From positions 1,017,501 through 1,081,500 of the forward strand of contig NZ_CP150637.1 in assembly GCF_038500265.1 (NCBI RefSeq): a stretch of 64,000 nt of DNA, read 5' to 3'. A program made the position numbers and the translations under genes. Below are positions 687 through 17,012 of this stretch, in pieces (position 1 is the first letter of the stretch; each line of letters begins with the position of its first letter). The notes under the pieces were generated by a model. That model did no database searches, was not told the origin of the DNA, and was given only the letters and a program-made list of their open reading frames with translations. The DNA comes from Ignatzschineria larvae DSM 13226 (GTDB lineage Bacteria; Pseudomonadota; Gammaproteobacteria; Cardiobacteriales; Wohlfahrtiimonadaceae).

Positions 687-2219
687 TTATTCGTTATATC
701 CCAATTCTTCTAAATACTGATCCATTTTCGCTTCTAGTTCGGCGAACTCTTTTTTAAGGGCTAGTCGTTCTTGGCGAACGGCTTCAAGGTCGATTACTTC
801 CTCTTCTTCAAAGGTATCCACGTAGCGGGGGATGTTGAGGTTGAAATCGTTCTCGGCGACTTCTTCAAAGCTAGCTAAGTAGGCATATTTATCGACACTT
901 TCCCGCGCTTGGTATGTCGTGAGGATCTTCTCGATATTCGCTTTTGAGAGATTATTCTGATTCTTGCCGGCTTTAAACTCTCGGCTGGCATCGATAAAGA
1001 GAATATTATTATCCTGTTTATTGGTTTTGAAAATCAATAACGCCGCCGGAATGCCGGTGCCGTAGAAAAGTTTTTCAGGTAGCCCAATCACCGCATCGAG
1101 CAGGTTTTCTTCGATTAACTGTTGTCGAATTTTCCCCTCGGATGATGCGCGGAAGAGTACGCCATGAGGAACCACAACTGCCATTCTACCGCTATCTTTT
1201 TTGAGCGTTTCAATCATGTGAATCACAAAGGCAAAATCGCCACGAGATTTCGGCGGAACGCCTCGTTTGAAACGATTAAAGGGATCATTTTCCGCGACTT
1301 CTTCCCCCCATTTGTCGAGTGAAAATGGAGGATTAGCCACGATAACATCAAAGTGGAGTAGGTTGCCATTTTGATCAAGGAGCTTTGGATTACGAATTGT
1401 ATCGCCCCATTCAATTTTGTGATTATCTTCACCATGGAGGAACATATTCATTTTGGCAAGAGACCAAGTAGAACCGATGGCTTCTTGCCCAAAGAGCGCG
1501 TAATTCTTGCTCTGATAATTTTTCTGAATTTCTTGACCACATTTCATTAAGAGCGAGCCAGAACCGCAGGTTGGGTCACAGATCATATCGCCGGGAACGG
1601 GGGCCATCAGTTGTGCCATCAGCTCAGAAACTTCCGGCGGCGTATAGAATTCACCGGCTTTCTGACCGCCACTTGCGGCGAAATGTTTAATCATAAACTC
1701 AAACGCATTCCCGATGACATCGAGATTACCCACGCGACTTGGTTTGAGATTGAGCGCATCTACATGGAAATCTTCTAATAGTAGGCGCAAAATCGTATTT
1801 TTTTGAGCCTCTTCACCGAGTTTATCGCTATTGAAAGAGATATCTTGGAAGACACTTTTGCCGGCATCGCGAAGTTTGGTACCATTCGCTTCTTCAATGG
1901 CGTGAAGTGCTTGGTCGATTCGTTGCCCATTGCCGGGCTCATTACGTTGCTCATAAAGCGTGTAAAAACTTGCTGATTTAGGGAGAACAAAACGCTCATT
2001 TTTCATCATCTCTTCAATCAGTTCCGGCTCATCGCCATATTCCTTTTGGTAACGATCATAGTGATCTTGCCAAACATCGGAGATGTACTTTAAGAAGAGC
2101 ATCGTGAGAATATAATCTTTATAAGTATCGGCGCTGATCGTGCCGCGAAACGTATCGCAAGCGGAGAAGAGCGCATTGTTGATTTCAGTTTGTTGTACTT
2201 TTTCTTTGTTATTATCCAT
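687..2219 (-). CDS. hsdM: type I restriction-modification DNA methyltransferase subunit HsdM
   Basis: A 510-residue N6-adenine methyltransferase of the HsdM family, normal length. Residues 1-150 form the helical HsdM_N region. The AdoMet-binding motif I DPTCGSGS is at residues 215-222 and the catalytic motif IV NPPF at 296-299, both intact, so it should be active. The conserved FYTPPEVSELM stretch precedes motif I. Its ATG overlaps the stop of the upstream half-length S gene by one base (TAATG), implying translational coupling, and hsdS follows 10 bases downstream. The order half-S, M, S is unusual because a second S-like gene comes first. It modifies the host DNA with the S subunit. Confidence 0.95.
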   Translation of the reverse strand: MDNNKEKVQQTEINNALFSACDTFRGTISADTYKDYILTMLFLKYISDVWQDHYDRYQKEYGDEPELIEEMMKNERFVLPKSASFYTLYEQRNEPGNGQRIDQALHAIEEANGTKLRDAGKSVFQDISFNSDKLGEEAQKNTILRLLLEDFHVDALNLKPSRVGNLDVIGNAFEFMIKHFAASGGQKAGEFYTPPEVSELMAQLMAPVPGDMICDPTCGSGSLLMKCGQEIQKNYQSKNYALFGQEAIGSTWSLAKMNMFLHGEDNHKIEWGDTIRNPKLLDQNGNLLHFDVIVANPPFSLDKWGEEVAENDPFNRFKRGVPPKSRGDFAFVIHMIETLKKDSGRMAVVVPHGVLFRASSEGKIRQQLIEENLLDAVIGLPEKLFYGTGIPAALLIFKTNKQDNNILFIDASREFKAGKNQNNLSKANIEKILTTYQARESVDKYAYLASFEEVAENDFNLNIPRYVDTFEEEEVIDLEAVRQERLALKKEFAELEAKMDQYLEELGYNE

Positions 2220-2833
2220 TATAATGAATCCTTTACGGTCAGTTGTTGAGCAAGACTATACATGATTTGTCGGTTTTTCTCGATCAGTTCTGTGAGAATG
2301 TGCTGTTCTTGACGATGAATCTGATCAAGGGCAATGATCTTCTCTTGATAAGAGAGATCGGGTAGGGTAATTGGCGTGGCTTCTAGTAATCCTCGGCGTA
2401 GCGTTTTGACGAGTGAGCCTTCTGCTTGTCGTTCAAAATATTGCTGACAAGGGCCTTGATTAAGCTGCCAAGCTACAAATGCCGGAATCGCATCTAGTGT
2501 ATGTAAGCGAATTACAAAAAAGTTCGAAGAAGCTACAAAGCGTTCCCCATAAGGAGCCGCCGCTTTTGCATCGAAAAGAGTGGCTGAGTAATTCCCCCGT
2601 AGGGAGAAGAGGATATCCTGATCTTGGAGCAGATAGTGGTCTACCTTGTTGCCAATATCGGTCGATACCACCTGCTGATAAAGAATCCCCTCCGTTGCAG
2701 AGATATCTTTCGGCTGGATCATCGGCACACCCGATAGATCCTCCTCCATTCTCCCACGCAACGCAACGCCAAGATTAATCTCGGCGATAGTTGATAATTG
2801 TATTTTTCTCTTCATATTTTTCACAGTATCCAT
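2219..2833 (-). CDS. half-length type I specificity-like protein, first gene of the hsd operon
   Basis: A 204-residue protein resembling one half of an HsdS subunit: a single recognition-like domain (LSTIAEINLGVALRGR... PMIQPKDIS) with the second-domain-type linker LPDLSYQEKIIALDQIHRQEQ near residues 155-180 and a long helix at the C terminus. Full HsdS proteins are about 400 residues with two such domains. It is translationally coupled to hsdM. A half-S protein can dimerise to replace a full S subunit, or it may have another role; that is inference. A similar half-S/M gene order recurs at 14933-17012. The start at 2833 gives MDTVKNMKRK; an alternative ATG lies six codons later. Confidence 0.7.
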   Translation of the reverse strand: MDTVKNMKRKIQLSTIAEINLGVALRGRMEEDLSGVPMIQPKDISATEGILYQQVVSTDIGNKVDHYLLQDQDILFSLRGNYSATLFDAKAAAPYGERFVASSNFFVIRLHTLDAIPAFVAWQLNQGPCQQYFERQAEGSLVKTLRRGLLEATPITLPDLSYQEKIIALDQIHRQEQHILTELIEKNRQIMYSLAQQLTVKDSL

Positions 2834-3046
2834 GATAATGTATTTGGTTAGTGCGATTATTGTAAGAGGTGATCAGGAGAATTGCAACTATTTTTTTGCA
2901 GTATTGATTATAATGTATTTTGAACTGCTGTTTTTCTGCTTTTTAAATTGAGGAAAGTGGGATAATTCTTTAATATGGAGAGGATAATATTTATAATTTT
3001 TATATCTGCATGTCATTTTTTAAATCCCTCATTCAGGCTAACAACA
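2834..3046. promoter_or_regulatory. divergent promoter region with repeated ATAATGTATTT
   Basis: The spacer between the leftward hsd operon and the rightward ImmA-like gene. The 11-base word ATAATGTATTT occurs twice in the same orientation, at 2835-2845 and 2910-2920, the second overlapping -10-like TATAAT hexamers on both strands (2909-2914 on plus, 2907-2912 on minus). Identical words beside both promoters suggest a shared regulator, but none is identified. Confidence 0.3.
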
Positions 3047-4198
3047 ATGAGTACATTTAATTTTTCTCCAACAGTTTTAGAGTGGGCCGCTAATAATATT
3101 AATATTAGTTGGGAGAGCTTGGCTGAAGAAATTGTGACAGCCAAAACAAAACGAGAAGAGAAATTACAAGCAGCCTATGATGGGAAGCTGACTTTAAAAC
3201 AGGCAGAAAAAATATCTCAAAAGACGAATACGCCTTTTGGTTTTTTATTTTTACAAGAGCCACCTAAGTTAGAAAAGTTAACGATTCCGGATTTGCGCAC
3301 GATCACTCAAAGCAACCCATTATCGAATGATTTTTATGATACTTTAGAAGATATTTATAAAAAAGTGGAGTGGTATAGAACCTATCTGGAAACAGAGGGA
3401 GAATTAGAACCACATTCTTTCGTCGGGAGATTCTCTTTTAACAAAAATTTATCTGTCGAGAGGGTAGTTGAAGATATCCGTCATACAATAAACGTAGATT
3501 CTAAGTTTTTTGAAACGGATAGTAAGAGTCATTATTATCAGGCCTTAACTTCTAAAATAGAAAATATAGGCATCTTAGTATTTACCAATGGGGTTGTTAA
3601 GAATAATCCTAGACGAAAATTGAATATTGCAGAATTTAGAGGCTTTGCGATAGCGGATAAATATGTGCCTGCCGTATTTATCAATAATTCTGATACGTTG
3701 TCGGCACAATTATTTACTCTAATGCATGAGATTGCCCATATTTGGCTCGGAAAAAGTGGTGTTTCGGATGCGAATGAGGGAAGCGAGGTAGAGCGATTTT
3801 GTAATAAAGTTTCAGCAGAGTTTTTAATGCCCACAAAGCTTTTTTTAGAAAAGTGGACGTTTGATCAATATGAAGCATTAACCTATGATTCCTTATCTCG
3901 TATAGCAGAGTATTTTAAGGTGAGTGTCTTTGCTGTAGCGGTAAAAGCCAAACAACTTCATTTAATAACAGATCATGGAGTGAATCAGATTAAGGCTGAG
4001 GCTATTGCCAAATATCAAATGAAGCGCCTTTCAAATGGCGGTAATTTTTATGCCACGCTTCCTTATAGAAATAGCAAAACTTTTACTAATGTCCTAGTTA
4101 ATCAAGCGCTATCACAGCAGATGTTACTACGAGATGCGGCATCTATGTTAAATGTAAAACCCAATACGATTATGCAGTTATATTTGAGACAGCAATAA
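3047..4198 (+). CDS. ImmA/IrrE-family metallopeptidase, probable antitoxin/regulator of the adjacent DUF4411 gene
   Basis: A 383-residue protein with the zinc-protease motif HEIAH at residues 227-231, followed by a Glu-rich helix (EGSEVERFCNKVSAEFLMP) typical of the ImmA/IrrE (DUF955) family. The N-terminal ~70 residues resemble the short helical region that precedes this domain in proteins paired with DUF4411 toxins. The frame is open from 2975, but the first 24 residues of that longer version are hydrophobic and unlike the family, so the ATG at 3047 (MSTFNFSPTVLEWA) is preferred. Known role of such pairs: the peptidase-like partner regulates or neutralises a PIN-domain toxin. The downstream partner here carries a stop codon. 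Adjacent to the type I R-M locus, hence a small defence cluster. Confidence 0.85.
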   Translation: MSTFNFSPTVLEWAANNINISWESLAEEIVTAKTKREEKLQAAYDGKLTLKQAEKISQKTNTPFGFLFLQEPPKLEKLTIPDLRTITQSNPLSNDFYDTLEDIYKKVEWYRTYLETEGELEPHSFVGRFSFNKNLSVERVVEDIRHTINVDSKFFETDSKSHYYQALTSKIENIGILVFTNGVVKNNPRRKLNIAEFRGFAIADKYVPAVFINNSDTLSAQLFTLMHEIAHIWLGKSGVSDANEGSEVERFCNKVSAEFLMPTKLFLEKWTFDQYEALTYDSLSRIAEYFKVSVFAVAVKAKQLHLITDHGVNQIKAEAIAKYQMKRLSNGGNFYATLPYRNSKTFTNVLVNQALSQQMLLRDAASMLNVKPNTIMQLYLRQQ

Positions 4199-4207
4199 AA
4201 CTTACAT

Positions 4208-4711
4208 ATGAAATATATTATTGATGCGAACATATTCATTCAATCTAAAAACTTTGAATACTCATTTTAGTACTGCAAAATGTTTTGGGATATGCTGCTA
4301 GAGTGCGCTAAACGGGGGATTGTTTGTAGTACTAAATCGGTCTATCAAGAAATTTCCCCTAACCAGGATGAGTTATCTGATTGGATTAATGATGAGTTAT
4401 TGCCTAACTATCCTCTATTTTTTGAAGATTGCAGTGCTTCATTGCAGTCTTATGCCACTATTATGCAATGGGCATCAGTAAGTGCGAGATATACCACAGT
4501 GGCTAAAAAAGAGTTTGCCTCAAGGACTGTTGCAGATGCCTTTATTTTAGCGCATGCCTTAGAAAATGATTATGGAATCATTACGGCAGAAAAGCCAAGT
4601 AATGCAAAAAATAAAATTAAAATGCCAGATGTTGCACTTGAATTTAATATTCCCACATTGACATTATTCGATTTTTTGAGGAAATATGCTAAGAATAATT
4701 TTACACTTTGA
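4208..4711 (+). pseudogene. DUF4411 PIN-like toxin interrupted by an in-frame TAG
   Basis: Reading from the ATG at 4208 gives MKYIIDANIFIQSKNFEYSF, the characteristic N terminus of DUF4411 PIN-like proteins, then TAG at 4268-4270, then the same frame continues (YCKMFWDMLLECAKRG...) to a normal end at 4711, about 167 residues in total. The DAN motif with the first acidic metal ligand (Asp6) lies before the stop; a restart at ATG 4280 would lack it. The rest still carries SRTVADAFILAHALENDYGIITAE, the distal acidic part of the site. The gene is therefore probably inactive, or needs readthrough. It lies 9 bases after the ImmA-like gene, the usual arrangement for this toxin-antitoxin type. Confidence 0.8.
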
Positions 4712-7918: not shown

Positions 7919-8460
7919 AAATTATTCGTTTTCCTTTTCTTAAGGACGAGTAGATCCCGACCTCTTTAAGAGAGTTGTTACGTAATAAATTTTTTTCGGG
8001 CAGATAACCTCAAGGGTTTTAACGAGGGGAAAAGTTAGGAAAAAATGAACGAATCATTAACTTAAAAAACCTAAATCTTTTCAAATTGATCACTACCATT
8101 TGGCGGTCTAGGCAAGTGTGGAACATTATATTTCAAGAGATCTTGAAGAAGAGGGTTTGAAAATAGAGTTTTCCCTAGACAATTTTGATTATACGGAAAG
8201 GGGGGTTGATTGCAATTGCTTGAATTGTCACAATATTGTCACTTGACAAGCATTTTTGGAAAATGGATTTTCTTTGAGATCGATTATTATTTCTATGATA
8301 ACGCAAAGATTAAAATTGGTTATTTAAAGTGAAATATTGTTGTTTTTTAACGCTAAAAATTGAATAAAATTTATGCAAAATTTCTGATATTGGGTACTTG
8401 ATCCTTGAAGAAAGTTGAAATTTTAAGGGGAATTTTGAGAGAAAAATTAAAGATGTCGAC
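7919..8460. other. AT-rich non-coding region upstream of proV
   Basis: No convincing gene is seen here. The region contains the ribosome site and leader of proV. At 8225-8249 two direct copies of TTGTCAC and an adjacent inverted TTGACAA form a compact cluster that could be an operator or promoter element, about 300 bases from the proV start. The right end grades into the tandem repeats starting near 8462. Confidence 0.3.
8225..8249. promoter_or_regulatory. clustered TTGTCAC direct repeats and inverted TTGACAA
   Basis: TTGTCAC at 8225-8231 and 8236-8242 are spaced by one helical turn, followed at once by TTGACAA at 8243-8249. The 11-base periodicity is what a DNA-binding dimer would recognise. 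Which gene it serves is uncertain; proV is the only gene reading away from it. Confidence 0.25.
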
Positions 8461-8461
8461 A

Positions 8462-9068
8462 TTAAAAGCCGCCAAAATAGCCGGCGCAGGATCGTGAGAA
8501 GAGCGAGATCATTCCCCCCGGCGATGCGGTAGGTCTTCTTATTATCAATAAGAGCTGATTCAGTGCGGGATAGAAAGATCGAGAAACCAGAGCAATCATA
8601 CGCCCGCAGTTGAGTGATTTGCAATCTCTCGGTAATGAGCAATGCTGAACTTGCCGGCACAGGATTGTGATAAGAACGGGATCATTCCCCCCGGCGATGC
8701 GGTAGGTCTTCTTATGAATAAATAAGAGCTGATTCAGTGCGGGATAGAAAAATCGAGAAGTTATAGAGAGCAAGCGCCCGCAGTTGAGGGATTTGAAATC
8801 TCTCGGTAATGAGCAATGCTGAACTTGCCGGCACAGGATTGTGATAAGAACGGGATCATTCCCCCCGGCGATGCGGTAGGTCTTCTTATGAATAAATAAG
8901 AGCTGATTCAGTGCGGGATAGAAAGATCGAGAAACCAGAGCAATCATACGTCCGCAGTTGAGGGATTTGCAATCTCTCGGTAATGAGCAATGCTGAACTT
9001 GCCGGCACGAGATTGTGAGAAGAGCAGGATCATTCCCCCCGGCGATGCGGTAGATCTTCTTATGCCAT
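8462..9068. repeat. tandem intergenic repeat array R1, ~174-base period
   Basis: Four copies of a module ending GATCATTCCCCCCGGCGATG start at 8507, 8680, 8854 and 9028, giving periods of 173, 174 and 174 bases. Between them lies a second module (AGCTGATTCAGTGCGGGATA... CGCCCGCAGTTGAG). The same two-module unit recurs near 12.3-12.9, 14.0, 33.7-34.5 and 40.9 kb in better conserved form. Because 174 is divisible by three, long open frames of 58-residue repeats appear on the minus strand; they are judged non-coding. Orientation here is the same as at 12.3 kb and opposite to 34 kb. Confidence 0.85.
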
Positions 9069-9102
9069 ATTTTTATTAGCAATGATGAATACAGAAATAA
9101 AA

Positions 9103-12969: not shown

Positions 12970-13713
12970 ATGGGGATAGATGTTGTTAATAAAAGAATTT
13001 TTTTCGCAGAAAATCATCAGAAATTATTGGATACATCTGAGATCGAAAAACCTTGGGTGGATGAAATAAGATATCAATCAGAAAAAATGATCATATACAG
13101 CATATTTAAAAGGCGTAGATCTAAGCGTGGTAATTCTAGAGGGGATGGTAATCCATTTATCTATGCTCTTAAGCAGCAAAAAGGTTATCAAATGAAGTGT
13201 TCAGAAATAGTAAAAATTAAACCATTTTTTGAGCATAATTTATCTGTTTGCCTAAATGCTTTAGATTTTGACTGCATTGTACTATCGCCCTCTTATTATG
13301 GTATAACTAATTTTCTTGCAAGTAGAATTCTTCGTGTTAAACCCAATATTTCTATATATAAGGGGGTTTTTCAAAAAGTTAAAAATGCAGATATTCTTCA
13401 ACAAATAGAAACGAATATTCTACCTAAAGTTAAAGATAGTAGTGACCGGAGATTTTATACAAGTTTATTACACGAATTAACAAAGTATTCCGATGTATCA
13501 TTTTCAATGAAGAATATTAGACCCAAATATCGAAAAGGACTGCTTGTATATAAATTCTCTTCTTGTTTTGACACTCAAACATTAAAGGGTAAGAAAGCTC
13601 TATTAATAGATGATTTGTTATCTACAGGTACATCATTATGGGCAGCAAAGAATTTATTAGAAAGAAAAAATATTCTGTCAGTACAGTTTCTTTGTCTTTT
13701 TAGTGCATTGTAA
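12970..13713 (+). CDS. orphan phosphoribosyltransferase-fold protein
   Basis: A 247-residue protein whose C-terminal part carries the PRPP-binding loop KALLIDDLLSTGTSLWAAKNLL (Asp214-Asp215 in the DD pair), the mark of type I phosphoribosyltransferases, preceded by a beta-strand region CIVLSPSYYGITNFLASRIL. The N-terminal ~75 residues are unlike purine or pyrimidine salvage enzymes or ComF, and there is no zinc finger. Codon use is much more AT-rich than in neighbouring uvrD, suggesting recent acquisition. Repeats lie on both sides (12268-12874 and 13987-14064) and a terminated RNA lies just downstream. PRTase domains of this kind occur in some defence and stress operons, but no partner enzyme is seen here, so the function is unassigned. 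Confidence 0.6.
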   Translation: MGIDVVNKRIFFAENHQKLLDTSEIEKPWVDEIRYQSEKMIIYSIFKRRRSKRGNSRGDGNPFIYALKQQKGYQMKCSEIVKIKPFFEHNLSVCLNALDFDCIVLSPSYYGITNFLASRILRVKPNISIYKGVFQKVKNADILQQIETNILPKVKDSSDRRFYTSLLHELTKYSDVSFSMKNIRPKYRKGLLVYKFSSCFDTQTLKGKKALLIDDLLSTGTSLWAAKNLLERKNILSVQFLCLFSAL

Positions 13714-13986: not shown

Positions 13987-14064
13987 GGCATTGAGAAACG
14001 CCACAATTGCCGGCGCACGATTGCAATAAGAACAAAATCATTCACCCCGGCGATGGGATAACTT
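13987..14064. repeat. single intergenic repeat copy R3
   Basis: One copy of module A with the same lead-in as at 12276 (GGCATTGAGAAACGCC), followed by TGCCGGCGCACGATTG and CATTCACCCCGGCGATGG. Together with R2 it brackets the phosphoribosyltransferase gene and the candidate RNA. Confidence 0.8.
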
Positions 14065-14436: not shown

Positions 14437-14481
14437 AAGTAAATTGCAAATAGTTATTGAATAACCATTTGCAATTTACTT
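14437..14481. promoter_or_regulatory. 45-base near-perfect palindrome upstream of the DUF4258 locus (operator O1)
   Basis: Arms of 22 bases (14437-14458 and 14460-14481) surround a single central G and differ at one pair only. The arms begin AAGTAAATTGCAAAT. The inner part (AATAGTTAT and ATAACCATT around 3 central bases) matches the smaller operator-like sites at 14518 and 14901. Too extended to be a terminator (no T run), it looks like a binding site for a symmetric regulator about 100 bases before the first gene. Confidence 0.7.
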
Positions 14482-14517
14482 GTGAATGGTTTAATATCCT
14501 TTTTGTCGAAAGTATTT

Positions 14518-14538
14518 AATAGTTATCTGATAACTATT
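14518..14538. promoter_or_regulatory. inverted repeat operator O2
   Basis: Perfect 9-base arms AATAGTTAT (14518-14526) and ATAACTATT (14530-14538) with a 3-base centre CTG. It shares its arms with the core of the 45-base palindrome and sits 42 bases before the start of the DUF4258 gene, where it would cover the promoter or leader. Confidence 0.65.
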
Positions 14539-14579
14539 TTTGAATAGAAGAAAACATTTTAAATGATAAGGGGGAAGAG

Positions 14580-14843
14580 ATGATGCAATTATCACGACAT
14601 ATTGATCAGCGAATGAACCAGCGGGGCATTACGAAAGAGATGGTTGAGCTCACCTTAGAATATGGTGAGATCGATAACGATCGCTGGGTACTCAATCGTA
14701 AAGGCGTTGAGACGATGATCGAATCACTTGAGAAACAGCTGCGCACCGCTCGTAAATTGCGAGATAAAGGCGGAATTGTGGTAGTTGCAGAAGATAACAC
14801 ACTGGTCACAACATACGATTATGATAGTAGAGATCGGTATTAA
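14580..14843 (+). CDS. small DUF4258-like protein, first gene of a half-S/HsdM-like locus
   Basis: An 87-residue protein beginning LSRHIDQRMNQRGITKEMVELTLEYGE, the pattern (His-x3-Arg-x4-Arg-Gly-Ile, then Val and Gly) of the DUF4258 family, and ending in a beta-rich IVVVAEDNTLVTTYDYDSRDRY. Family function is not established; similar small domains occur in toxin-antitoxin and polymorphic toxin settings. A strong GGGGAAGAG ribosome site precedes two successive ATGs (14580 and 14583). Operator-like palindromes O1 and O2 lie upstream and O3 downstream, so this gene and its neighbours seem jointly controlled. It may be a toxin-like effector or a nucleic-acid-binding accessory; neither is shown. 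Confidence 0.65.
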   Translation: MMQLSRHIDQRMNQRGITKEMVELTLEYGEIDNDRWVLNRKGVETMIESLEKQLRTARKLRDKGGIVVVAEDNTLVTTYDYDSRDRY

Positions 14844-14854
14844 TTCATACTCAT

Positions 14855-14870
14855 CGATTATTCATAATCG
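14855..14870. repeat. short inverted repeat CGATTAT/ATAATCG
   Basis: Seven-base arms separated by TC lie 12 bases after the DUF4258 stop. It resembles the operator family but has a 2-base rather than 3-base centre, so it may be a hairpin in the transcript or a degenerate site. Confidence 0.35.
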
Positions 14871-14888
14871 CGTATCAATGATGTTATG

Positions 14889-14921
14889 ATGATTGAATTC
14901 AATCATTATCAAATAACGATT
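14889..14921. promoter_or_regulatory. perfect 18-base palindrome overlapping operator O3
   Basis: A perfect palindrome (ATGATTGAA with TTCAATCAT, 14889-14906) overlaps a third operator-like repeat, arms AATCATTAT (14901-14909) and ATAACGATT (14913-14921), 8 of 9 positions complementary, 3-base centre CAA. It lies 12 bases before the half-S start, hence directly over its ribosome-site region. The word ATTATCAAATA in it recurs at 17061-17071 (inverted) and 17116-17126. Confidence 0.6.
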
Positions 14922-14932
14922 TTGAGGTAGTA

Positions 14933-15547
14933 ATGAAACTAAAAGAGGTTGCAGAGGTATCATCCGCAGGGGTGATTAAGTATGAGGAGATTCAGGTAGC
15001 GCCTTTGACGCAGGAGGCGATTTTGCTAAGTGGATCGAATTTGCTTGAGCTTGGGTATCTCTCATTGATTAAAGATGGGGAGAATGCCAATTTGCGTAAG
15101 GTGTATGTGGAGCCGGCGATTTTTGAGGCGAAGCGTTTAGAGGCGGGTGATGTGATCTTTATGTCCCGAGGTGCAAGCTTTCGGGCGACGATTGTACAGG
15201 CGCACGATGCGGAATTGAATTTGATTCCGTCCCCTAATTTTACTGTGATTAAGGCGAATAATATGAAGATTTTACCGGAAGTGGTGGTATCGTTCCTCAA
15301 TAGCCCTGTGGGACAAGCGAAGTTAGAAGGGCTTGCGGTGGGGACGGCGATTCGGAATGTACCGGTAGGGAAATTGCGCTCTTTAGAGTTGACGCTTCCA
15401 AGCCTTGAGGAGCAGAAGCAGTTACAGCGCCTGTTCTATAAAAATATTGAAGTGCTTGAGGCGATGTCGGCGCTTTATCGTCAGCAAAATGCTACTTTTC
15501 AATCGGTGGTGAATAATATGATGGGGGAGAAGGTCGATGAGTCGTAA
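14933..15547 (+). CDS. half-length HsdS-like specificity protein
   Basis: A 204-residue protein with one recognition-like domain and the S-subunit style segment RNVPVGKLRSLELTLPSLEEQKQLQRLFYKNIEVLEAM (about residues 145-182) followed by a helix. Like the half-S protein at 2219-2833 it has half the usual HsdS length and precedes a methyltransferase gene. ATG at 14933 follows TGAGGTAGTA, a good ribosome site. The gene overlaps the next by 11 bases, so the proteins are made together and probably bind each other. The two half-S proteins share layout more than sequence. Probable role: sequence-recognising subunit, perhaps as a dimer. Confidence 0.65.
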   Translation: MKLKEVAEVSSAGVIKYEEIQVAPLTQEAILLSGSNLLELGYLSLIKDGENANLRKVYVEPAIFEAKRLEAGDVIFMSRGASFRATIVQAHDAELNLIPSPNFTVIKANNMKILPEVVVSFLNSPVGQAKLEGLAVGTAIRNVPVGKLRSLELTLPSLEEQKQLQRLFYKNIEVLEAMSALYRQQNATFQSVVNNMMGEKVDES

Positions 15548-17012
15548 GATGGAAACTGCGCAATCGGATGCGCTCAAATCAGAGGCGATCCTCTTCGGGC
15601 TAATTTCAGAATTTCGAGGCACTGTGCCGATCGAAGATGCGACAGAGATTATTATGAGTTCCGCTTATCTCTTCTGGCAAGATCCCGATCAAGCCATTGA
15701 AGCGCTTGAGTCAGGGGAGAAGAGGTTACAACATTATCTCTTTGAAGCGTGCCAAGCATTGTGTGAAGCGCGTCAATTACCACTCAAATCCGAGTATTAC
15801 CGGCAAATTTCTTGCAGTGGATTGATCGAAAGCTATCGGCAGATCTATCAGCAATGTGATGCTAATCGTTTGAACTTCGCTCACTTTGTGGCGGAAGGGA
15901 TCTATACCGGCGTGACGATTGAGAATCGCCGGCATTCTGGTGATTTAGATAGTAGCTCTATTCCCTATTTGATGCGCAATATCGCGCGCCTCTATCCTTA
16001 TCAAAAGGTCTATGATGGCGCTTGTGGCTTTGGGCGCTTGCTCTATCTGCTCAATCCCCCCACTTTTATTGCGCGGGATATCGTGCCGATTAATGTGGCG
16101 TTAACGCAATTACTCTTTGAGATGTTGACCCGTAAAGGATGCTTCCTTGTGGGTGATACCTTGATGGGTGCAGATAGTGCAAATCAAGCAATTGATCAAT
16201 CGATAGAGAAGGCCTCACAACAAGAAGTAGAACAAGAAGCAGAACAAGAAGTACCGGAGGAATCAGCACCGGAATCGATACAAACATCAGCGCCGGCAAG
16301 GGAAGCGATCACAGAACCGCTTGGCGTAGATATGGTGATTTCTCAACCGCCTTTAGGGATTCAGATTGATTCAAAACTATTGACGACATTAGCAAAATCG
16401 CCTTATCTCTTAATGGATGATCCGATCTCTTCGCGGGCGAGTGATAGCCTTTGGATTCAAGAAGCGCTCTATCAAACTCACGCGCGCGGACGGGTGATTT
16501 TGCATATTGCGCCGGGCTGGAGCTATCGGGCAGGTTATGATTTGGCACTTCGTAAAGAGTTATTGGAACGCAATTGGGTTGAAGCGCTGATCTATCTGCC
16601 GGGGAGTATGATGAGTTATACTGGCATTGAGAGTAATATTCTAATTCTTAATCGCGCTAAAAAGGTCAATACGATCCGTTTAATTGATGGACGATCCCTT
16701 GGGTTTATAAGCTCGAAAAAACGCTATCGAATCTTCTCAGAAGCGGATATTAAGCAGATTACAACGCGACTTCAAGCATCGGATTTATCCGAGGTGCAAG
16801 CATCCGATACGAATAGCGATTTCGCGCTCGATATCCCTCTAAGTGAAATTCGGAAAAAGAATTATGATCTCAGTGCCACACTCTATTTCTCAAAAATAGA
16901 GCGACTTGAGCTTACGAGCATTGCCGAGGAGCAGCGGAAACTCTTGCAATTAAGCGAGCAGTGTCAAAAATTGCAGGCGGAGTTTCAGGCGCTCGTAGAG
17001 GAGATTGGGTAG
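15537..17012 (+). CDS. HsdM-like methyltransferase-fold protein with degenerate catalytic motif
   Basis: A 491-residue HsdM-type protein. A motif I equivalent DGACGFGRLL (residues 160-169) retains the glycine-rich AdoMet loop, but the motif IV equivalent reads SQPPLG (269-274) where active adenine methylases have N/D-P-P-Y/F; the catalytic Asn is replaced by Gln. Later HsdM landmarks remain (APGWSYRAGYDLALRKELLE, VEALIYLPGSMMSYTGIESNILILNR). An acidic insertion of Gln-Glu-Val/Ala repeats sits at about 229-245 between motifs I and IV. No HsdR accompanies it. It may bind AdoMet and DNA without methylating, or methylate poorly. The strong GGGGGAGAAGG ribosome site lies inside the half-S gene. 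A 12-base inverted repeat follows. Confidence 0.7.
   Translation: MSRKMETAQSDALKSEAILFGLISEFRGTVPIEDATEIIMSSAYLFWQDPDQAIEALESGEKRLQHYLFEACQALCEARQLPLKSEYYRQISCSGLIESYRQIYQQCDANRLNFAHFVAEGIYTGVTIENRRHSGDLDSSSIPYLMRNIARLYPYQKVYDGACGFGRLLYLLNPPTFIARDIVPINVALTQLLFEMLTRKGCFLVGDTLMGADSANQAIDQSIEKASQQEVEQEAEQEVPEESAPESIQTSAPAREAITEPLGVDMVISQPPLGIQIDSKLLTTLAKSPYLLMDDPISSRASDSLWIQEALYQTHARGRVILHIAPGWSYRAGYDLALRKELLERNWVEALIYLPGSMMSYTGIESNILILNRAKKVNTIRLIDGRSLGFISSKKRYRIFSEADIKQITTRLQASDLSEVQASDTNSDFALDIPLSEIRKKNYDLSATLYFSKIERLELTSIAEEQRKLLQLSEQCQKLQAEFQALVEEIG

Follow-up and report, generated by a model that had tools for sequence, protein, structure and literature searches.

What does a type I DNA methylase do once its catalytic motif is gone and no restriction subunit stands beside it? 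The question is raised by three consecutive genes in Ignatzschineria larvae DSM 13226, which lie in the window analysed here, a stretch of 64,000 nucleotides (contig NZ_CP150637.1, positions 1,017,501 to 1,081,500). On the plus strand, the genes encode a small DUF4258 protein, a half specificity subunit (half-S) and an HsdM-like protein, for which we use the term pseudo-methylase (pseudo-M). We tentatively favour the explanation that this trio is a self-regulated effector module made of type I parts, similar to toxin-antitoxin (TA) systems or to the pair PrrC/EcoprrI. The parts are known, and we did not find their combination described.

The first-pass annotation of this DNA had described the three genes, an overlap of 11 bases between the last two, the strings DGACGFGRLL and SQPPLG in the HsdM-like protein and the lack of a restriction subunit. 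All of this is found in the sequence: no HsdR is encoded within the locus, and the nearest one in the genome belongs to another type I locus, approximately 15 kb upstream. The start of the locus at 14437 had to be revised, since the first gene begins at 14580 and the intervening 143 bp contain putative control sites.

A methylase family without the catalytic asparagine

The HsdM-like protein has the N6_Mtase domain of type I DNA methylases, but its motif IV reads SQPPL instead of NPP[FYW]. Its score with TIGR00497 is 50, against a cut-off of 243. The motif IV asparagine is gone in every readable member of the family, in which SQPPL, STPPF, MEPPM/F, CCPPW, AIPPF, SFPPM, AFPPF/L, GFPPF, CILPT and CISPP were found, with Q, T, E, F, I or C seen in its place. 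By comparison, the ordinary HsdM proteins recovered by similarity retain NPPF or NPPY in 54 of 54 cases. Thus, homologues that mostly keep N/D-PP-F/Y, which would have pointed to a mere remnant, were not encountered; the constant feature is the loss of Asn and not its replacement by Gln.

Motif I is loosely kept in those members in which half-S and pseudo-M are separate proteins (the split group; GLAR or GMAR in some of them) and is lost or replaced in those in which the two are fused. The window protein retains DGACGFGR in part, together with the Pro-Pro of motif IV. Since many members have an S-adenosylmethionine (AdoMet) loop that is eroded or missing, the earlier proposal that AdoMet serves as a ligand does not hold as a property of the family. 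The acidic Gln/Glu insertion noticed at first reading is indeed present in the window protein; it is not conserved, being absent from two relatives and nearly neutral in its evolution (see below).

In the tree, eight split pseudo-Ms form one clade (support 100/100). The fused ones cluster as well, but on long branches, and the relation between the two groups is unsettled. A class-wide profile search of 369 genomes yielded no other pseudo-M, the remaining matches reaching at most 160 bits, the level of ordinary HsdM, versus 602 bits for the window protein; the split form therefore appears to be rare. Matches to the window pseudo-M on plasmids were nearly all ordinary HsdM. A structure model of pseudo-M computed from 6 sequences was unusable (predicted local distance difference test score, pLDDT, of 50).

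Conservation of the trio

Homologous loci were found in three other genomes of the family, and a close relative that has the trio at the same place is I. ureiclastica. In one of the three genomes (G006) the gene order is that of the window and the HsdM-like protein is 94% identical, while in the other two (G005 and G013) the identity is approximately 30-40% and the order is half-S, pseudo-M, DUF4258. The recurrence of the three-gene set, suggested earlier as a check, is thereby confirmed in two gene orders. The DUF4258 subfamily is present in precisely those 4 of 40 relatives which have a pseudo-M, a co-occurrence with a naive probability of about 1e-5 if kinship is ignored.

Purifying selection acts on each of the three genes, judged from the sequence comparison with G006. 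The ratio of nonsynonymous to synonymous substitution rates (dN/dS) is 0.05 for DUF4258, 0.022 for half-S and 0.17 for pseudo-M. For the latter it decreases to 0.14 when the acidic linker is removed, the linker by itself having a value of 0.76. The reading frames of the trio are intact. Moreover, the G006 genome, which is 98% complete, gave no match to HsdR and none to N6_Mtase besides the pseudo-M, so the suggestion that homologues might be linked to HsdR does not apply there. The low dN/dS values and the absence of HsdR and of another N6_Mtase from G006 together argue that the trio is neither decaying nor an obligatory component of a type I system. That it is a decaying type I remnant is hardly credible: the lost catalytic motif and the missing HsdR next to it in the window would fit, but the low dN/dS values (0.02-0.17), the intact frames, the identical partners that recur across phyla and the conserved control sites do not.

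The evidence outlined so far also bears on the possibility that the HsdM-like protein has kept the ability to methylate DNA or another substrate, via an altered motif IV. The retained Pro-Pro and the partly retained motif I of the window protein speak for it. Against this stand the family-wide replacement of Asn and the replacement of motif I in the fused group, and even M2 subunits which make N4-methylcytosine (m4C) retain NPPY (PMC9613975). We consider residual methylation very unlikely; m4C methylation as a specific variant was rejected because of the NPPY kept by the M2 subunits.

Palindromes as putative control sites

Three sites with the bipartite 21-bp pattern AATnGTTA-N5-TAACnATT are located in the trio locus (Table 1). 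Shuffling of the window gives an expectation of 0.05 matches even when two mismatches are allowed. When one mismatch at most is allowed, the whole genome contains no match besides these three; G006 has four, of which three are the same sites. For G005 and G013 we used the pattern AATCGTTW-N5-WAACGATT, picked after the three sites had been seen: its sole one-mismatch match in G005 lies upstream of the half-S gene, as do two of the 16 two-mismatch matches in G013. In both genomes the palindrome stays at the half-S promoter though the DUF4258 gene is the last one. In the Sulfuricurvum locus, two TAGTTA-N5-TAACTA sites, one exact and one with a single mismatch, immediately precede the DUF4258 gene; at least one such site was found in 1 of 400 shuffles and two in none of 400. 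In Synechococcus, Vibrio, Moellerella, Rheinheimera and the Cyanobacteria except Oscillatoria, upstream palindromes were not clearly above shuffles.

A promoter-like sequence with 9-11 of 12 matches begins at most one base from the end of site 1 in the window and G006, in G005, in G013 and in Sulfuricurvum; the chance of such an abutment is about 0.05 per lineage, considering a range of 20 bases. In the window, alternative boxes (TTGCAA/TAATAT) exist two to three bases further on, and the sequence at 14468-14498 is absent from the list of a stricter promoter scan. Site 2 follows the -10 box in the window and G006, in G013 and in Sulfuricurvum, but not in G005.

Which protein may recognise these sites? 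In M.EcoKI, the M and S subunits bind DNA only as a complex. Half-S subunits, natural or engineered, give rise to symmetric bipartite specificities, for example GAAY-N5-RTTC (PMC3874165). A half-S/pseudo-M dimer that binds the GTTA-N5-TAAC sites would fit both observations and is a candidate binder.

Table 1. Genes, protein motifs and control sites of the trio locus (positions in the window)
Feature	Position	Strand	Details
Palindrome site 1	14449-14469	.	AATAGTTATTGAATAACCATT; GTTA-N5-TAAC core; exact to pattern
Promoter-like sequence abutting site 1	14468-14498	+	TTTGCA, 16 nt, TTTAAT; 9/12 matches
Palindrome site 2	14518-14538	.	AATAGTTATCTGATAACTATT; exact to pattern
DUF4258 protein, putative effector	14580-14843	+	87 amino acids (aa); Pfam PF14076, 29.4 bits (cut-off 25)
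Palindrome site 3, upstream of half-S	14901-14921	.	one mismatch
Half specificity subunit	14933-15547	+	204 aa; one target recognition domain (TRD); Pfam PF01420 Methylase_S, 22.9 bits (cut-off 22); PADLOC Specificity_I models
Pseudo-methylase (HsdM-like)	15537-17012	+	491 aa; Pfam PF02384 N6_Mtase, 84.2 bits (cut-off 20.4)
Motif I remnant	16014-16043	+	DGACGFGRLL; DG replacing DP
Gln/Glu-rich linker	16179-16322	+	approximately residues 215-262 of the HsdM-like protein; not conserved
Motif IV position	16341-16358	+	SQPPLG replacing NPPF/Y

Relatives on plasmids and beside type I operons

Plasmids of Synechococcus, Oscillatoria, Sulfuricurvum, Aromatoleum, Roseovarius and Roseomonas carry close relatives of the DUF4258 gene, followed immediately by genes annotated as 'N-6 DNA methylase' or 'subunit M/S'. 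The plasmids with DUF4258 before pseudo-M/half-S thus come from Cyanobacteria, Campylobacterota, Alpha- and Betaproteobacteria, and the objection that DUF4258 might not be conserved beside pseudo-M is answered by an association across phyla. Pseudo-M and half-S form a single fused protein in Synechococcus, Oscillatoria, Sulfuricurvum and Aromatoleum; in the alphaproteobacteria Roseovarius and Roseomonas, the gene split seems to be inside the methylase domain. Fused genes without DUF4258 (L089-L092) are carried by small plasmids of Cyanobacteria and Aliivibrio, and in Geminocystis and Cyanobacterium sp. such a gene is directly followed by one for a 65-aa protein.

A second setting was found in Rheinheimera, Paraglaciecola and Moellerella, where a split half-S/pseudo-M pair is situated just upstream of genes for HsdM, HsdS and a Ppl-type ATPase. 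This ATPase has 900 aa and matches PADLOC Ppl (E 4e-152 in Rheinheimera). HsdR is next in the Moellerella locus, and in Vibrio ordalii the pair is followed by HsdM and HsdS.

On other plasmids, related DUF4258 genes precede different partners, namely LRAT-domain, DUF3944, CopG-like and unidentified proteins. On plasmids of Moraxella osloensis and Acinetobacter (L078 4001-5048; L084 4034-5032), the DUF4258 relative is directly followed by an LRAT-domain protein with a hydrophobic tail; these partners are approximately 48% identical to each other and constitute a second recurring DUF4258 pair. On plasmids of Aeromonas and Acinetobacter (L075 6001-6837; L085 1235-1967), a ribbon-helix-helix-like protein of 145-166 aa follows. 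The two proteins of this kind are 42% identical over 85 aa and resemble a conventional antitoxin.

No relatives were detected among viral contigs and phage records, or in Escherichia coli genomes searched at the DNA level with the Vibrio pair. A phylum search of 398 genomes with the DUF4258 profile gave one weak, unrelated-looking match.

A proposed effector module and its alternatives

The DUF4258 family (PF14076) is on a list of BECR toxin families, which belong to the RelE/ParE superfamily; its activity is unknown (PMC11980606). On the basis of this listing, a toxin-antidote-like arrangement with DUF4258 as the putative effector is plausible. A further precedent is PrrC: the type I enzyme EcoprrI holds it latent until the phage T4 peptide Stp sets it free (PMC2610378). 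Given an inactive DNA-binding complex, an adjoining gene of a toxin family and dedicated operators, the simplest reading of the trio is a TA-like module, or one related in logic to PrrC.

According to this model, half-S and pseudo-M would assemble like half-S type I methylases, with two M and two half-S subunits. The complex would bind the symmetric GTTA-N5-TAAC operators and thereby repress the operon, and the same complex would keep the BECR-family DUF4258 protein inactive. Perturbation of the complex, which could be caused by titration by invading DNA, by a DNA mimic from the anti-restriction arsenal of a phage or by loss of the locus, would set the RNase-like toxin free. The module itself would neither methylate nor cut DNA. 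As to the trigger, type I M-S complexes are targets of DNA mimics such as Ocr and ArdA (PMC9613975), so it is conceivable, though speculative, that a dead M-S complex acts as a sensor of anti-restriction. The bolder generalisation that a family of dead methylase/half-S proteins serves as antitoxin and autorepressor of a BECR RNase, as a guard which releases the toxin in response to DNA mimics or invading sites, is in our opinion rather unlikely. What the sequence evidence does support, in agreement with the first-pass annotation, is a conserved module for DNA recognition which does not methylate and is paired with DUF4258.

Several observations weigh against the proposed effector module. Regarding the effector, the Pfam match of the window DUF4258 protein is confined to the N-terminal half of the profile (34 of 71 positions), and its model (alpha-alpha-beta-beta-alpha-beta-beta, pLDDT 71) had no meaningful fold match in the PDB. 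Regarding the partnership, fused relatives in Annamia, Geminocystis, Cyanobacterium and Aliivibrio have no recognisable DUF4258, and split pairs beside type I operons lack it too. Regarding the operators, G005 has just one clear site; Sulfuricurvum has the same operator core, yet the identity of its S domain is as low as about 22%; and an Aeromonas DUF4258 gene without pseudo-M is preceded by one GTTA-N5-TAAC, which overlaps the end of the preceding gene. DUF4258 itself could bind the operator.

An alternative is that pseudo-M/half-S, with DUF4258, is chiefly a transcriptional controller of type I operons, comparable to C proteins or RptR, the Ignatzschineria copies being stand-alone derivatives. 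This would explain why HsdM and HsdS come right after the pair or fusion in Rheinheimera, Paraglaciecola, Vibrio ordalii, Moellerella, Sulfuricurvum and Roseovarius, and why the Sulfuricurvum operators are located at the operon promoter. We nevertheless regard it as unlikely, for G006 has the trio but neither an HsdR nor another N6_Mtase match, fused copies standing alone exist, and a mere repressor leaves the constant DUF4258 partner unexplained.

The roles could also be reversed, with DUF4258 as a DNA-binding or neutralising regulator and pseudo-M/half-S as an effector directed against invading DNA, for instance one that blocks it. That DUF4258 relatives precede quite different partners on plasmids would be expected for a shared regulator, but equally for a shared toxin. 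The Aeromonas site without pseudo-M is in line with the reversal, while in Acinetobacter the closest DUF4258 relatives without pseudo-M (49-52% identical) lack the palindrome. Together with the listing of DUF4258 among BECR toxins and the operator at the half-S promoter in G005 and G013, where DUF4258 comes last, this makes the reversal quite unlikely.

Comparison with known systems

The trio shares with half-S type I methylases (NgoAV and deletion derivatives of EcoDXXI; PMC3874165) an HsdM fold, an S subunit with a single TRD and a putative symmetric bipartite site with a spacer of N5-N8. It differs from them by the lost catalytic Asn, the eroded motif I, the DUF4258 partner, putative operators of its own and the lack of a need for HsdR. 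The HsdR partner that belongs to type I restriction-modification is found neither in the locus nor in the G006 genome. In the trio, as in PrrC/EcoprrI, a protein of a toxin family is genetically linked with M and S subunits of type I origin (PMC2610378, PMC3874165); however, PrrC, an anticodon nuclease linked to an ATPase, belongs to an active type I system, while here M is inactive as judged by its motif, the partner is an 87-aa DUF4258 protein and the latching is proposed. With type II TA systems that have BECR toxins (PMC11980606) it has in common a small gene, here of putative BECR type, beside a putative DNA-binding partner and palindromes that may serve as operators. Its partner, in contrast, derives from a methylase, consists of a complex of two proteins or of their fusion, and is far above the usual antitoxin size.

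Two other candidates were rejected. RptR (PMC12255303) resembles the trio in its small first gene, repeated promoter palindromes and type I link, but it is all-helical and binds 6-bp TAGCTA repeats, whereas the model of DUF4258 has an alpha/beta fold and each site is a 21-bp bipartite palindrome. Pseudo-M and S show weak similarity to MAD2 and MAD5 of the methylation-associated defence system MADS (mad2/mad5); the scores fall far short of the curated cut-offs (18.3 against 400 for the window half-S with MAD5), also in the relatives, and no other MADS genes were seen in the trio locus.

In the literature searched, we found no paper in which a toxin-family protein has a reused type I methylase/specificity pair as its non-catalytic partner. 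A link between DUF4258 and a type I pseudo-methylase was not found in the open literature (subscription papers and preprints were outside the search), and the one paper that mentions both DUF4258 and 'type I restriction' deals with the two separately. If the proposed module is real, some genes annotated as 'N-6 DNA methylase', 'type I subunit M/S' or orphan half-S code for regulators or antitoxins rather than for methylases, and the recognition domains of type I systems are a source of sequence-specific repressors.

Neighbouring genes

A complete type I system is encoded at 687-4711 of the window and upstream of it, with HsdR (1095 aa), HsdS (418 aa) and HsdM (510 aa, with NPPF). It also contains an extra half-S of 204 aa and is followed by ImmA/XRE-like and PIN-like genes; the whole block is missing from the corresponding place in G006. 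Between a UvrD-like helicase gene and the trio lies a gene for a phosphoribosyltransferase-domain protein of 247 aa (12970-13713), and no open reading frame (ORF) of this size exists at the corresponding G006 place. Finally, a recurring intergenic sequence at 8310-9082 and 13995-14060 gives rise to spurious ORFs with repeated KKTYRIAGGNDP peptides, and stretches resembling this repeat are also present upstream of the trio.

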